Origin: Rubricoccus marinus
GTDB taxonomy: Bacteria > Bacteroidota > Rhodothermia > Rhodothermales > Rubricoccaceae
Direction of reading: 5' to 3'
Assembly: GCF_002257665.1 (NCBI RefSeq)
Contig: NZ_MQWB01000001.1
Location: 1,074,741 to 1,126,561 of the forward strand
Length of the DNA stretch: 51,821 nucleotides
In this document: positions 240 to 46,268 of the stretch, piece by piece
Layout: the number at the start of each line of letters is the position of its first letter
Position numbering within the stretch: position 1 is the first letter of the stretch
Position numbers and translations under genes: made by a program
Notes under the pieces: generated by a model
Databases searched by the model: none
Told to the model about the DNA's origin: nothing
What the model saw: the letters and a program-made list of their open reading frames with translations, nothing else

Positions 240-270
240 CGCCTCTGGCGAAAGCCAATCGCCAGAGGCG
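240..270 (+). terminator. Hairpin made of an inverted decamer pair after tuf
   Basis: An 11-base perfect stem (CGCCTCTGGCG, 240-250, with CGCCAGAGGCG, 260-270) and a 9-base loop begin 9 bases after the tuf stop. Both arms are copies of the window-wide decamer. No strong T-run follows, so it may only attenuate or mark a processing point between tuf and tRNA-Trp. Confidence 0.55.
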
Positions 271-17244: not shown

Positions 17245-17298
17245 CTCGCCAGAGGCCATCTGCTCGCCAGAGGCCACCTGCTCGCCAGAGGCGGCTCC
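17245..17298. repeat. Three tandem 18-base units each carrying a decamer
   Basis: Three direct copies of an 18-base unit (17245-17262, 17263-17280, 17281-17298) beginning CTCGCCAGAGGCC. The first two differ at one position; the third diverges at its end. All decamers point the same way, unlike the usual inverted pairs. They lie in the 232-base spacer before the acyl-CoA dehydrogenase. Confidence 0.9.
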
Positions 17299-18932: not shown

Positions 18933-20327
18933 ATGAGCCAGAAGCACATCGTCGTCGTTGACGACGACCCGAAGATCGGAGACCTGTTCGCCAAAGTGCT
19001 CCAGCGCGACGGCTATGCCGTCCAGGCGTACACGCGAGCCTCGGACTTTCTGGACACACTGGACTCCGGGGACCCGCCAGACCTGGTCCTTACGGACCTC
19101 ATGATGCCGGACGTGTCCGGAATGCAGCTCCTGGAGGCGCTGTCCGACAAGGGCATCACGATCCCGGTCATCCTCATGACCGCACACTCCAGCGTGCAAA
19201 CGGCCGTGGAGGCGATGCGGATGGGCGCCTTCCACTACCTCCAGAAGCCGGTCAACCTGGAGGAGATGCGGGCGCTGCTCTCCAAAGCGCTCGACCTCTA
19301 CTCCGACAAGCAAGAGCTCCAGGAGATCAAGCGCGAGCGGAAAAAGAAGAACTCCGTCTCCAAGATCATCGGCACGAGCGATGAGGTGCAGGAGGTGCGG
19401 GACACGATCCAGACGCTCAAGGACATCCCGAACACAATCGTCCTCGTACGTGGCGAGACGGGGACGGGCAAAAACCTCGTTGCGCAGACCATCCACTACG
19501 AATCGCGCTGGGCGAGTGGGCGGTTCATGGAGATCAACTGCGCCGCGCTTCCAGACAACCTGCTGGAGTCCGAGCTCTTCGGCTACGAAAAGGGCGCGTT
19601 TACCGATGCCCGCGCGGCCAAGCCGGGCCTGTTGGAAGTCTCGGACGGTGGCACACTGTTCCTGGACGAGATCGACTCGATGAGCCTGCCGCTGCAGGCC
19701 AAGCTGCTCTCCTTCCTGGAAAGCCGAGAGTTCCGGCGCCTCGGCGGGACCGAGAACATCAAGGTGTCCACGCGTATCGTGTGTGCTACGAACGCGAAGC
19801 TGGAGGAGCGCGTCGCCGAAAAGGAGTTCCGCAAGGACCTCCTCTACCGCATCAACGTGGTCACGCTGCAACTCCCGCCGCTCCGCCGCATGGGCGACGA
19901 TGCGGTCACGATCGCGGAGAAGGTGGCCGCCGGCTTCGCCACGGAGTTCCACAAGCCGTTCGAGGGCTTCACGCCAGAGGCGGAGGAGATTCTCAAAGGC
20001 CACGACTGGCCCGGCAACGTCCGCGAGCTCCGCAACGTGCTGGAGCGCGCGCTCATCTTCGCCAAGACGCCCACGCTGGACGCGTCTGACCTCATTCTCC
20101 TCAAGTCCGACGCCTTCGCCGCGCCGGAGGACGATAGCGACGCGTTCAAATTCCGCTCGCGGGGTAGCCTGGAGGACCTCGAGCACGCCTACATCCGCCA
20201 CACGCTGGCGGAGATGAAGGCACCGTTCTCCGAGGTCGCCAAGGTGCTCGGTATCTCGAAAAAGACGCTCTGGGAGAAGCGCAAGAAGTACAACTTGGAC
20301 GAGGAGGTCGAGGCGCTCGCGGCCTAG
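18933..20327 (+). CDS. Sigma-54-dependent NtrC-family response regulator
   Basis: A 464-residue protein in three parts: receiver domain (1-120, phospho-acceptor D55 in VLTDLMMPD), AAA+ activator domain with Walker A GETGTGKN (174-181), the sigma-54-contacting GAFTDA loop (221-226) and Walker B LFLDEID, and a Fis-type helix-turn-helix at the C-terminus (EVAKVLGISKKTLWEKRKKY). The intact GAFTDA means it should activate sigma-54 promoters. Walker A ends in Asn where most relatives have Glu. No sensor kinase is adjacent, so its partner lies elsewhere. The TAG overlaps a decamer palindrome. Confidence 0.93.
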   Translation: MSQKHIVVVDDDPKIGDLFAKVLQRDGYAVQAYTRASDFLDTLDSGDPPDLVLTDLMMPDVSGMQLLEALSDKGITIPVILMTAHSSVQTAVEAMRMGAFHYLQKPVNLEEMRALLSKALDLYSDKQELQEIKRERKKKNSVSKIIGTSDEVQEVRDTIQTLKDIPNTIVLVRGETGTGKNLVAQTIHYESRWASGRFMEINCAALPDNLLESELFGYEKGAFTDARAAKPGLLEVSDGGTLFLDEIDSMSLPLQAKLLSFLESREFRRLGGTENIKVSTRIVCATNAKLEERVAEKEFRKDLLYRINVVTLQLPPLRRMGDDAVTIAEKVAAGFATEFHKPFEGFTPEAEEILKGHDWPGNVRELRNVLERALIFAKTPTLDASDLILLKSDAFAAPEDDSDAFKFRSRGSLEDLEHAYIRHTLAEMKAPFSEVAKVLGISKKTLWEKRKKYNLDEEVEALAA

Positions 20328-20344
20328 CCTCTGGCGCCAGAGGC
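20327..20344. repeat. Decamer palindrome overlapping a stop codon
   Basis: GCCTCTGGCGCCAGAGGC starts on the G of the regulator TAG. The same arrangement, stop codon running straight into the repeat, is seen after rpoC, fadD, the acyl-CoA dehydrogenase, ddl, the EEP phosphohydrolase gene and others. It is a probable hairpin terminator without a T-run. Confidence 0.9.
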
Positions 20345-29728: not shown

Positions 29729-29758
29729 GCAGAAAGTGCTCGCCTCTGGCGCCAGAGG

Positions 29759-31690: not shown

Positions 31691-32464
31691 ATGCCGATCT
31701 CCACGCCGTACCTCGCCGAACTCGTCGCCGCGCCTCCGCAAGAGGCCGAGCCGCCTCCGCTGACCGACGGCTTTCGCGTGGCGACCTACAACGTGCACCG
31801 CTGGGCGGGTGTTCGCGGCGGCAAGCAGTACGAGCCGGAGCGCGCGATGGGCGTGATGGAGGAACTGGAGGCCGACGTGATCGCGCTCCAGGAAGTCCTA
31901 AGGCCGTTCGACGGGCGCGACCCACTTCGCCGCGCCGCGCGCGCGATGGGGATGCATCTCGCGTTCGTCGTCACGCGGATGCACAAGCGCGGCGAACTGG
32001 GAAACGCCGTTCTCTCACGCTACCCGTTCGCCAGCGCCGAGGCCATCGACCTCACGTTCGGGCGATTGGAGCGCCGCGCCGCCCTCGCGGTGCGTTTGGC
32101 CTCTGGCGGCGATGGCGAACGCATCAGCATCGTCTCCACGCACCTCGCGCTCATGGACCGCACGCGCACGAGGCAGGTGAAGGCGCTCCTGGAACACCCC
32201 CACTTCGATGGCGCGCCGACGCTGCTCTTGGGTGACATGAACGCGTGGCGCCGCAACCCGGCCTCGCGCGGGCTGGACGCGTACGCCGAGCGGCACAACA
32301 ACGAGCGCTGGCCCGCCTCGTGGCCGAGCGTCCGCCCGGTCCTCGCGCTGGACCGCGCCTACGCCAGCGGTCTGAACCTCTGCGACCTGCACGCGCATGA
32401 GACGGCGGCGAGCAAGCAGGCTTCGGATCACCTCCCGCTGGTGGGACGCGTGGTGGTGGGATAG
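31691..32464 (+). CDS. Endonuclease/exonuclease/phosphatase family protein
   Basis: A 257-residue EEP-superfamily metal-dependent phosphohydrolase. The ordered motifs are ATYNVHRW (N-terminal Asn), ADVIALQEV (metal-binding Glu), STHLALMDR, LLLGDMNAW (Asp/Asn pair) and the C-terminal SDHLPLVGRV (Asp-His). It has no clear signal peptide. The substrate may be a nucleic acid, phospholipid or sugar phosphate. ATG 31691 is preferred over an in-frame TTG 12 bases upstream. The TAG runs into a decamer palindrome (32464-32481). Confidence 0.85.
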   Translation: MPISTPYLAELVAAPPQEAEPPPLTDGFRVATYNVHRWAGVRGGKQYEPERAMGVMEELEADVIALQEVLRPFDGRDPLRRAARAMGMHLAFVVTRMHKRGELGNAVLSRYPFASAEAIDLTFGRLERRAALAVRLASGGDGERISIVSTHLALMDRTRTRQVKALLEHPHFDGAPTLLLGDMNAWRRNPASRGLDAYAERHNNERWPASWPSVRPVLALDRAYASGLNLCDLHAHETAASKQASDHLPLVGRVVVG

Positions 32465-32481
32465 CCTCTGGCGCCAGAGGC
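32464..32481. repeat. Decamer palindrome at the EEP gene stop codon
   Basis: GCCTCTGGCGCCAGAGGC begins on the last base of the TAG. It is the last decamer before a repeat-free stretch that extends to about 33160. Confidence 0.9.
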
Positions 32482-43653: not shown

Positions 43654-43779
43654 TCCGAATCGGTATCATCCGGTTCATATATGCGGTTGGCCTTCTCGGA
43701 TTCGCCGCGCATTCCTCCATGCGGGAGTGCTACGCCGCCGATCCACAGCTTTCTTAGCGCGACTCAACCTCAGAACTCT

Positions 43780-45618
43780 ATGTGCGGAATCGTCGGATAC
43801 ATTGGACCGCGTCAGGCGGGTGAGCTTCTCGTCTCTGGCCTCAAACGGCTCGAATACCGCGGGTACGACTCCGCGGGCGTCGCCGTCGCGAACGGGACGC
43901 TGGACGTGAGGAAAAAGGAAGGCAAGGTGGACGAACTCGCGTCGCTGCTCAAGGCGCGCCCCGTGCACGGGACGGTCGGCATGGGGCACACGCGCTGGGC
44001 CACGCACGGCGCTCCGACCGATGTCAACGCGCACCCGCACATCGCCGGCGGCGGACGCTTTGCGATCATCCACAACGGCATCATCGAGAACTACGGCTCC
44101 ATCAAGCGGCGGCTGATGGACAAGGGGTACACGTTCTTGAGCGAGACTGATACGGAGGTCCTCGCTCACTTTATCGACGACATCCAGAAGGAGACCGGCC
44201 TGGACTTCGCGGAGTCCATCCGACAGGCGCTGACGCAGGTGGAGGGTGCCTACGGCATCGTAGCGCTCTCGGAGGACAACCCCGACGAGCTGATCGTGGC
44301 GCGCAACGGCAGCCCGCTGCTGCTCGGCGTCGGCGAGGGCGAGCACTTTATCGGCAGCGACGCGAGCCCGTTTATCGAATACACCCGCAATGTGGTGTAC
44401 CTCAACGACGGCGAGATGGCGGTCGTCCGCGCGGACGGATACGAGGTGACCGAGATCAACGGCGCGCCCGTTGCCAAAGAGGTTCACGCGCTAGAGTGGG
44501 ACCTGGAGGAGATCGAGAAGGGCGGCTACGATCACTTCATGTACAAGGAGATCATGGAGCAGCCCGAGGCGCTGGCCAACGCGATGCGCGGCCGCGTCCA
44601 CGCCGACGAAGGCACGGTCAAACTCGGCGGGCTGGAGGACGTGATGAAGCAGTTGGAGGCGGCGGATCGCATCGTGATCTGCGCGTGCGGCACGTCGTGG
44701 CACGCGGGCTTGGTGGGGGAGTACCTCATCGAGCGCTTTGCGCGCATCCCCGTGGAGGTGGAGTACGCGAGCGAGTTCCGCTACCGCGACCCGATCCTGA
44801 ACGAGAACGACGTCGTGCTCGTGATCTCTCAGAGTGGCGAGACTGCCGACACGCTCGCGGCAGTTCGTCAGGCCAAGGAGGCCGGCGTCCTCGCTCTCGG
44901 CGTGGTCAACGCCGTCGGTTCCACGATTGCCCGTGAGACCGATGCGGGCGTTTACCTGCACGCGGGTCCCGAGATCGGCGTGGCTTCTACCAAGGCGTTT
45001 ACCGCCCAGGTGACCGTCCTCGCCCAGATCGCGCTCCTGCTCGGCAAGACGCGCGGCGTGCTCTCGGATGCCGACCTCAAGGAAAACCTGGAGGCACTCG
45101 CAAAAATCCCGACGCAGATCCGCGAGGTGCTCGAGCAGCAGGCGGAGAAGATCGAGGCCATCGCGCGCGAGATGCGGCTGGCGCAGAACGCGCTGTACCT
45201 CGGCCGCGGCGTCAACTTCCCGGTCGCACTCGAAGGCGCGCTCAAGCTCAAGGAGATCTCCTACATCCACGCCGAGGGCTACCCCGCGGCGGAGATGAAG
45301 CACGGTCCCATCGCGCTGATCGACCGCTTTATGCCGGTCCTGTTCGTGGCCACGCGAGAGGCGACCTACGACAAGGTCGTGTCGAACATCGAGGAGGTCG
45401 TCGCCAGAGGCGGGTCGGTCATCGCGATCACCGATACGGGAAACCGTGGCTTGGACGACCTCGCCGAGCACGTGATCGAGGTGCCGAAGACGTCCGATGC
45501 GTTCGAGCCGCTGCTAACGGTGATCCCGTTCCAGCTCCTGAGCTACCACGTGGCCGTCATGCGCGGCTGCGACGTAGACATGCCCCGCAACCTTGCGAAA
45601 AGCGTGACGGTGGAGTAA
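43780..45618 (+). CDS. glmS: Glutamine--fructose-6-phosphate aminotransferase (isomerizing)
   Basis: A 612-residue GlmS that makes glucosamine 6-phosphate for peptidoglycan and lipid A-type sugars. The N-terminal nucleophile Cys2 follows Met in MCGIVGYIG; the glutaminase domain has GMGHTRWATHG, HNGIIENY and LSETDTEVLAH. Two SIS domains follow, with CGTSWHAG, ISQSGETADTLAA, GPEIGVASTKAFTAQ and YPAAEMKHGPIALID. Upstream in-frame codons are ignored because Cys2 must be second. Only one decamer occurs in this long gene. An excellent terminator follows. Confidence 0.96.
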   Translation: MCGIVGYIGPRQAGELLVSGLKRLEYRGYDSAGVAVANGTLDVRKKEGKVDELASLLKARPVHGTVGMGHTRWATHGAPTDVNAHPHIAGGGRFAIIHNGIIENYGSIKRRLMDKGYTFLSETDTEVLAHFIDDIQKETGLDFAESIRQALTQVEGAYGIVALSEDNPDELIVARNGSPLLLGVGEGEHFIGSDASPFIEYTRNVVYLNDGEMAVVRADGYEVTEINGAPVAKEVHALEWDLEEIEKGGYDHFMYKEIMEQPEALANAMRGRVHADEGTVKLGGLEDVMKQLEAADRIVICACGTSWHAGLVGEYLIERFARIPVEVEYASEFRYRDPILNENDVVLVISQSGETADTLAAVRQAKEAGVLALGVVNAVGSTIARETDAGVYLHAGPEIGVASTKAFTAQVTVLAQIALLLGKTRGVLSDADLKENLEALAKIPTQIREVLEQQAEKIEAIAREMRLAQNALYLGRGVNFPVALEGALKLKEISYIHAEGYPAAEMKHGPIALIDRFMPVLFVATREATYDKVVSNIEEVVARGGSVIAITDTGNRGLDDLAEHVIEVPKTSDAFEPLLTVIPFQLLSYHVAVMRGCDVDMPRNLAKSVTVE

Positions 45619-45639: not shown

Positions 45640-45681
45640 ACGGGGCCTCTGGCGAATCGACCCGCCAGAGGCCCCGTCGTT
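45640..45681 (+). terminator. glmS terminator built from an inverted decamer pair
   Basis: A perfect 15-base stem (45640-45654 with 45663-45677), whose core is GCCTCTGGCG/CGCCAGAGGC, closes an 8-base loop and is followed by CGTTTT. It begins 22 bases after the glmS stop. A further decamer palindrome lies at 45714-45729 before the next gene. Confidence 0.9.
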
Positions 45682-45776
45682 TTGCCCGGTCTGCCAGAGC
45701 CTTGGGGGGCGAACCTCTGGCGCCAGAGGCCAGCAACGGCCGAGTTTTGCCCCGGATGTCACACGACTGTTCTCCT

Positions 45777-46205
45777 ATGCGTTTCCTCGCCCTTTGTGCT
45801 CTGCTCCCGCTCCTGCTGATCGGCTGTGACTCGTCCGGTCCTGAGAGCGGGATCGGGGACCTCACCCTCACGCTCAACCCGACTGGCGTTCCCTACAACA
45901 GCCTCCTCCTCCAGACTGAGGAGGAGTACGGAACGAACTGCGGCCTGGACGTCGACATCAATGGCGATTCGGAGTCCATCCAGATCGAGGTGTTGGGGCC
46001 GGCGCTAGCTGATAACCGGTGCGCGGCGGTGGTCAGCCCGTACACCATCATCATTCCTCTTCCCAGCTCCGGGTTGGAGGGCTACAGGTTGGATATCGAG
46101 AAGGACGGCGACGTGGATTCGTACCTCGTGAGCCGCCTCGGCGATGAGGAACCGCTTGTGCTGACCGGCTCAGGCAGCTTCTCACGCGTGCTTCCCAACG
46201 AGTAG
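45777..46205 (+). CDS. Hypothetical lipoprotein
   Basis: A 142-residue protein beginning MRFLALCALLPLLLIGCDSSGP, a textbook lipoprotein signal with the Cys at about 17. The mature part is small, acidic and probably beta-rich, with PYNSLLLQTEEEYGTNCGLDVDINGD and two further Cys that might form a disulfide. No family recognised. It lies between glmS and another lipoprotein, each with its own decamer terminator, so probably separately transcribed. Confidence 0.65.
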   Translation: MRFLALCALLPLLLIGCDSSGPESGIGDLTLTLNPTGVPYNSLLLQTEEEYGTNCGLDVDINGDSESIQIEVLGPALADNRCAAVVSPYTIIIPLPSSGLEGYRLDIEKDGDVDSYLVSRLGDEEPLVLTGSGSFSRVLPNE

Positions 46206-46229
46206 CGCGAGAGGTCTCCACGTGCGTTG

Positions 46230-46268
46230 AGCCTCTGGCGGGATCGGTCTCGCCAGAGGCTTTCTCTT
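46230..46268 (+). terminator. Terminator built from an inverted decamer pair
   Basis: AGCCTCTGGCG (46230-46240) pairs with CGCCAGAGGCT (46251-46261) over a 10-base loop, followed by TTCTCTT. It starts 25 bases after the lipoprotein stop. A second case of the decamer as a U-tailed terminator. Confidence 0.8.

Follow-up and report, generated by a model that had tools for sequence, protein, structure and literature searches.

The question raised by this locus is whether inverted copies of a short word, repeated throughout the genome of Rubricoccus marinus, serve as transcription terminators where they come together behind genes. In the 51,821-nt stretch of DNA analysed here (the window), the gene glmS and a small lipoprotein-like gene are each followed by a hairpin whose stem consists of inverted copies of GCCTCTGGCG. 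An earlier note on this DNA had read such pairs as intrinsic terminators with T-rich tails, and had taken them as support for the idea that the word is a DNA-uptake signal. We asked which of the paired words could act in this way, and what else the pairs might be.

Hairpins at three gene ends

Features of the three sites are collected in Table 1. Both pairs fold into hairpins, as had been described. Hairpin 1, formed by the decamer and its reverse complement, begins 21 nt past the glmS stop codon (the word itself starts 27 nt past it); an uninterrupted 15-bp stem encloses an 8-nt loop, with 2 further pairs beyond a bulge, and the RNA fold has an energy of -36.4 kcal/mol (z -6.0). Hairpin 2 begins 23 nt past the stop of the lipoprotein gene (word start at 26 nt) and folds at -28.4 kcal/mol (z -3.85). 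Stem lengths of 15 and 11 bases had been given for the two; we find the same, the second figure being the number of consecutive Watson-Crick pairs in a stem of 15 pairs, two of them G-U, with a 4-nt loop. The T-rich tail is clear at only one of the sites: hairpin 2, which received a tail score of -2.68 when the sequence was scanned for T tails, has a good one, whereas the tail at glmS is weak, since its TTTT run begins two bases past the stem. The hairpin after tuf has the same form without a tail, in agreement with the earlier description: 12 bp and a 7-nt loop (-24.7 kcal/mol, z -4.1), 8 nt past the stop codon (TGA 229-231). The loopless palindrome between glmS and the lipoprotein gene does not resemble a terminator, having no tail and a weak fold (z -1.7).

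In two relatives a different strong hairpin is located within 25-40 nt of the glmS stop (L049, with GlmS 87% identical, and L050, 79%), that of L050 being moderately better than shuffled sequences (z -2.1). Because the hairpin at this place in both relatives has a different sequence, a hairpin after glmS probably predates the word.

Table 1. Positions in the window of the genes, hairpins and T runs discussed in the text
Feature	Position	Strand	Details and source
glmS (glutamine-fructose-6-phosphate aminotransferase), upstream of hairpin 1	43774..45618	+	ORF start MCGIVGY; full-length relatives 87-41% identity
Hairpin 1, decamer and reverse complement	45640..45677	+	stem 45640-45654 / 45663-45677; RNA fold
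TTTT run after hairpin 1 (weak tail)	45680..45683	+	sequence
Loopless 16-bp palindrome CCTCTGGCGCCAGAGG, between glmS and lipoprotein gene	45714..45729	.	sequence, fold
Small lipoprotein-like gene, upstream of hairpin 2	45777..46205	+	ORF, coding score
Hairpin 2	46229..46262	+	stem 46229-46243 / 46248-46262; RNA fold, T-tail scan
T tail TTTCTCTT of hairpin 2 (clear)	46261..46268	+	sequence
Hairpin after tuf	240..270	+	stem 240-251 / 259-270; sequence, fold

Abundance and distribution of the word

The nine-mer CCTCTGGCG occurs 15,555 times in the genome (7747 + 7808), compared with 188 copies of a reversed control. It is preceded by G in 92% of cases in the first 400 kb, the other flanks being unconserved, and the resulting decamer is present in 14,176 copies (7049 + 7127, the strands alike; control 61). 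The first 400 kb hold 1590 nine-mers, and all one-mismatch variants together sum to ~690, most of them at background level; the window holds ~200 nine-mers in 51.8 kb. In each of 147 other genomes sampled from the phylum the decamer count is 25 or lower, and in the same-genus relative the nine-mer (157 copies) is less frequent than its control (237). Among the papers listed by a literature search, those containing the word were all unrelated.

Word density rises from 3.1 per kb in genes to 8.0 in head-to-head, 12 in tandem and 19 in tail-to-tail regions. Along 800 kb of the chromosome no word deserts or islands were detected (counts per 5-kb bin averaged 20.1, with a variance of 23.9 and a minimum of 6). 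Plasmid-like contigs C11, C14 and C15 (L141, L142, L145-L147) carry 0.15-0.55 words per kb, 10-25 times fewer than the chromosome (3.5-4.2), with C10 intermediate at 1.9; we infer that C11, C14 and C15 are plasmids.

Within genes the word occupies less conserved stretches (identity 0.59 vs 0.75). All seven words of hisD align without an indel to the same-genus relative, and in orthologous genes 124 of 148 words are gap-free, differing from the relative by 1-7 substitutions; the corresponding figure for random nine-mers is 1080 of 1128, indicating that words occupy the more variable stretches. Genic words arose mostly in place, by substitution and not by insertion.

Pairs and gene contexts were analysed in a sample of 852 kb, made up of 800 kb of chromosome (C1:200001-1000000) and the window, with 658 genes called. 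Adjacent words in this sample mostly alternate in direction (2176 alternating vs 1223 same), same-direction pairs are under-represented, and the excess of inward pairs extends to ~300-400 bp. Genes most often end in TAG (334/658); TGA leads in the samples from relatives G001, G004 and G006. At 54 of the 334 TAG stops CCTCTGGCG follows directly, so that the last base of TAG completes the decamer, and in many cases the 16-bp palindrome is present; examples in the window lie at 20325-20343, 32462-32480 and 29743-29758. Local arrays were also observed: seven copies of CCTCTGGCGA at an exact 19-bp spacing (G000:C1:80697-80820), three word-bearing units of 18 bp, almost identical to one another, within a reading frame of the window (17247-17291), and short tandem arrays right after stops and before a T run at C1:232380-232440 (GGGATGA; sample offset 32376) and C1:853080-853130 (GTAATGC; sample offset 653078).

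T tails follow one class of word pairs

Looped inward pairs (spacer 3-12) number 256 in the genome, compared with 0 for a reversed control pattern. Loopless palindromes CCTCTGGCGCCAGAGG, with word starts 7 apart, are present in 982 copies in the genome and 212 in the sample, which also holds 113 outward palindromes (starts 9 apart). Exact loopless pairs exceed the density expectation 15-65-fold in every context, and both palindromic overlaps (spacings 7 and 9) are enriched within genes too.

In tandem regions, looped inward pairs (starts 12-21 apart) are followed by 3.21 T per 10 nt. Draws at the same distance past other stops gave 1.70 ± 0.25, and none of 2000 reached the observed value; the T content peaks at bases 3-6 past the core. 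Behind genes, words without a partner are followed by 1.66 T per 10 nt. Loopless and outward palindromes of tandem regions lack T tails, with 1.9 and 1.1 T per 10 nt at a background of 1.66, and no T enrichment was found in the 852-kb sample for looped pairs within genes or in head-to-head or tail-to-tail regions. The tail-to-tail (convergent) regions are those densest in both word and pairs.

The distance from pair to stop codon had been suggested in the earlier note as a check. T tails are concentrated 15-60 nt past the stop, an interval set after the data were seen: looped inward pairs of tandem regions located there are followed by 4.43 T per 10 nt, and 10 of 14 have at least 4 T, compared with 2.31 T per 10 nt and 1 of 13 for pairs within 14 nt. 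The glmS and lipoprotein sites fall into the former class and the tuf site into the latter.

Strand bias of predicted terminators

Under strict TransTerm-type scoring, with a tail score of -3.0 or better, the 852-kb sample yielded just a dozen terminators; since these were too few to test, a looser tail cut-off was combined with a strand control. Of 348 tandem regions, 19 then showed a T-tailed word hairpin in sense orientation and 1 in antisense (Fisher P = 3e-5), and none of 190 head-to-head regions had one; T-tailed hairpins without the word numbered 11 sense vs 6 antisense. In a slightly larger sample, 20 of 33 predicted T-tailed terminators of tandem regions had the word in both arms. Scaling the 14 to 24 sites of the 852-kb sample by length gives ~70-125 terminator-like word sites per genome, a small share of the 256 looped pairs and 982 palindromes.

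At least 3 Watson-Crick pairs beyond the decamer were found at 13 of 119 palindromes downstream of genes vs 1 of 48 in genes (chance 2.4%), and at some hairpins both arms carry matched variants of the word, e.g. GCCTCTGGTGC...GCACCAGAGGC. These extra stem pairs and matched arm variants indicate that the hairpin is kept, not the word alone. Sharing of strong hairpins at ortholog ends was not above chance (10/24 shared vs 14/59, P = 0.12); at the ends of genes own_64, own_111, own_264 and own_601 a word hairpin is present in both genomes, each in its own dialect.

These data point to hairpins 1 and 2 as probable intrinsic (Rho-independent) terminators with stems made of inverted copies of a genome-wide word, a reading to which we assign a probability of about 0.7; RNA polymerase would stop at both. 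Once transcribed, the inverted copies would anneal to a GC stem of high stability, located 20-30 nt past the stop codon, and the T-rich stretch behind it would give a weak RNA-DNA hybrid from which the polymerase releases. Since the word itself has no T tail, the tails would have to derive from local sequence, selected or ancestral, abundant word copies having been drawn into the stems of transcription stops. The proposal that paired decamers are terminators is supported for the looped inward class of tandem regions, including both sites, by the T statistics and the 19 vs 1 strand bias. It does not extend to outward (-+) pairs or to pairs within 14 nt of a stop, including tuf, which have no tails; nor do the tail-less loopless palindromes, 982 per genome, bear out a terminator role for palindromes generally. 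Judged from sequence, terminator behaviour would be limited to roughly 70-125 sites per genome. Most of the ~15,500 copies and most palindromic pairs have another role, or none at the RNA level.

Alternative explanations

Pairs could arise with no role in transcription if the word accrues wherever sequence is free to change, mainly between genes, and density alone produces the pairs and hairpins. Density does track freedom from constraint (from 3.1 per kb in genes to 19 in tail-to-tail regions), genic words do lie in variable stretches, and palindromes and outward pairs lack tails; such accrual probably accounts for most pairs. As an overall explanation it is unlikely, because it leaves unexplained the T tails found only in sense orientation and missing at unpaired words, the additional stem pairs downstream of genes, and the excess of exact loopless pairs over density expectation in every context. 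Another possibility, which we consider doubtful, is that the pairs are primarily double-stranded DNA sites, with a dimeric protein (an uptake receptor, a nucleoid protein or a methylase) acting on CCTCTGGCGCCAGAGG and RNA hairpins incidental. The 982 exact palindromes and the enrichment of both overlaps inside genes are in line with this, as are the ~1300 DUS in overlapping dyads of S. muelleri, for which a dimer has been suggested (PMC3630211). Such a protein would cover the loopless palindromes but not the looped, T-tailed pairs.

The hairpins might also protect or process mRNA 3' ends, acting as barriers to 3' exonucleases after Rho-dependent termination further downstream. This would suit tail-less hairpins such as that of tuf and the palindromes at stop codons (54/334 TAG stops), but it requires neither T tails nor the distance rule of the looped class, and we regard it as improbable. 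Least of all do we expect REP/BIME-like or other small mobile inserts: although the pairs are palindromic, intergenic and of high copy number, the gap-free alignments in hisD (7/7 words) and in other orthologs (124/148), together with flanks unconserved beyond the G at -1, argue strongly against them, and spread by insertion of a unit was rejected on these alignments.

Dialects in relatives and the uptake hypothesis

Relatives use words of their own. GCTGGCGG(A) is the word of G001 and G007 (308 and 311 copies in ~140 kb; 1.9 per kb in genes and 4-6 per kb between them), and CCGAGGCGG is that of G004 and G006. CCGCTGGCGGA is present in 496 (G001) and 581 (G007) copies, against 30 and 40 for controls, and CCGCTGGCG differs from CCTCTGGCG by one base. 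GCTACTGGC in L049, considered as a further dialect, was rejected as a single local tandem array. A 14-copy cluster of the R. marinus word, otherwise missing from G006, was found at positions 6749-17274 of L097 (G006:C3:1080001-1100000) and is likely a recent transfer from the R. marinus lineage. ComEC scores above cut-off in 9 of 9 family genomes, and a PilT-family ATPase match in the R. marinus genome scores 318.2, just under the curated cut-off of 319.1.

The primary role of the word is most likely that of a DNA-uptake-type signal, for which we see about even odds. As with DUS and USS, a strict high-copy word occurs on both strands, takes the form of dialects in relatives, originates by substitution in homologous DNA and is rare on putative plasmid contigs; ComEC would fit as well, as would the candidate pilus-type ATPase. 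The paired words strengthen this hypothesis only weakly. Terminators add little to the case, since any very abundant word could supply stems and the excellent U7 terminators of G007 avoid its own word (0/11 in tandem regions). As a hypothesis, uptake is better founded on dialects, substitution origin and plasmid depletion than on terminators.

We tentatively suggest that a GC-rich, Bacteroidota-related family may have independently evolved uptake words and dialects, one of them the densest known (~1 per 285-310 bp), and that in R. marinus this word, which brings no T tail with it, may have been recruited into terminators, so that the Neisseria arrangement would have originated a second time. 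If true, uptake-type genome words and their terminator use evolved more than once, and the density at which terminators begin to adopt a word could be studied: the U-tailed terminators of G007, with ~2 copies per kb, avoid its word, and those of R. marinus, with ~3.5-4 per kb, do not. The data also warn that not every palindromic pair in a word-rich genome is a terminator.

Comparison with known systems

The hairpins share with ordinary intrinsic terminators a GC stem, a small loop and a T tract 20-50 nt past the stop codon; they differ in that the stem sequence is common to many unrelated genes and the tails are short and C-interrupted. HIP1 (GCGATCGC) of cyanobacteria is likewise the top over-represented word of its genomes, also within genes, and is replaced by other words in a lineage-specific way (PMC4390886). 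HIP1, being palindromic, is linked to sites of methyltransferases (PMC4390886), whereas the R. marinus word forms RNA hairpins when paired and, differing from its own reverse complement, was rejected as a HIP1-type palindromic word.

The closest parallels are the DUS of Neisseria (GCCGTCTGAA), whose pairs serve as terminators, and the USS of Pasteurellaceae, also very abundant short words (PMC1852404; PMC3630211). There as in R. marinus, close inverted pairs are favoured, close same-direction pairs are nearly absent and the word is enriched in tail-to-tail regions. Unlike in Neisseria, the R. marinus word has no A/T extension, so that the tail does not come from the word, and its pairs are mostly overlapping palindromes that have neither loop nor tail. 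The genome is GC-rich and belongs to another phylum, and its uptake signal is putative; its 14,176 decamers compare with about 1,900 DUS, or just under 6,000 in the DUS genome with the most copies (PMC1852404; PMC3630211). Dialects a few bases apart separate relatives both in the R. marinus family and among DUS (Frye 2013, PMC3630211). The preferred wider spacing of +- pairs is 18-21 in R. marinus and about 19-22 in the Neisseria figure (PMC1852404), and in both the word is found in over half of predicted terminators: 20 of 33 in R. marinus and 57% in N. meningitidis Z2491 (Kingsford 2007, PMC1852404).
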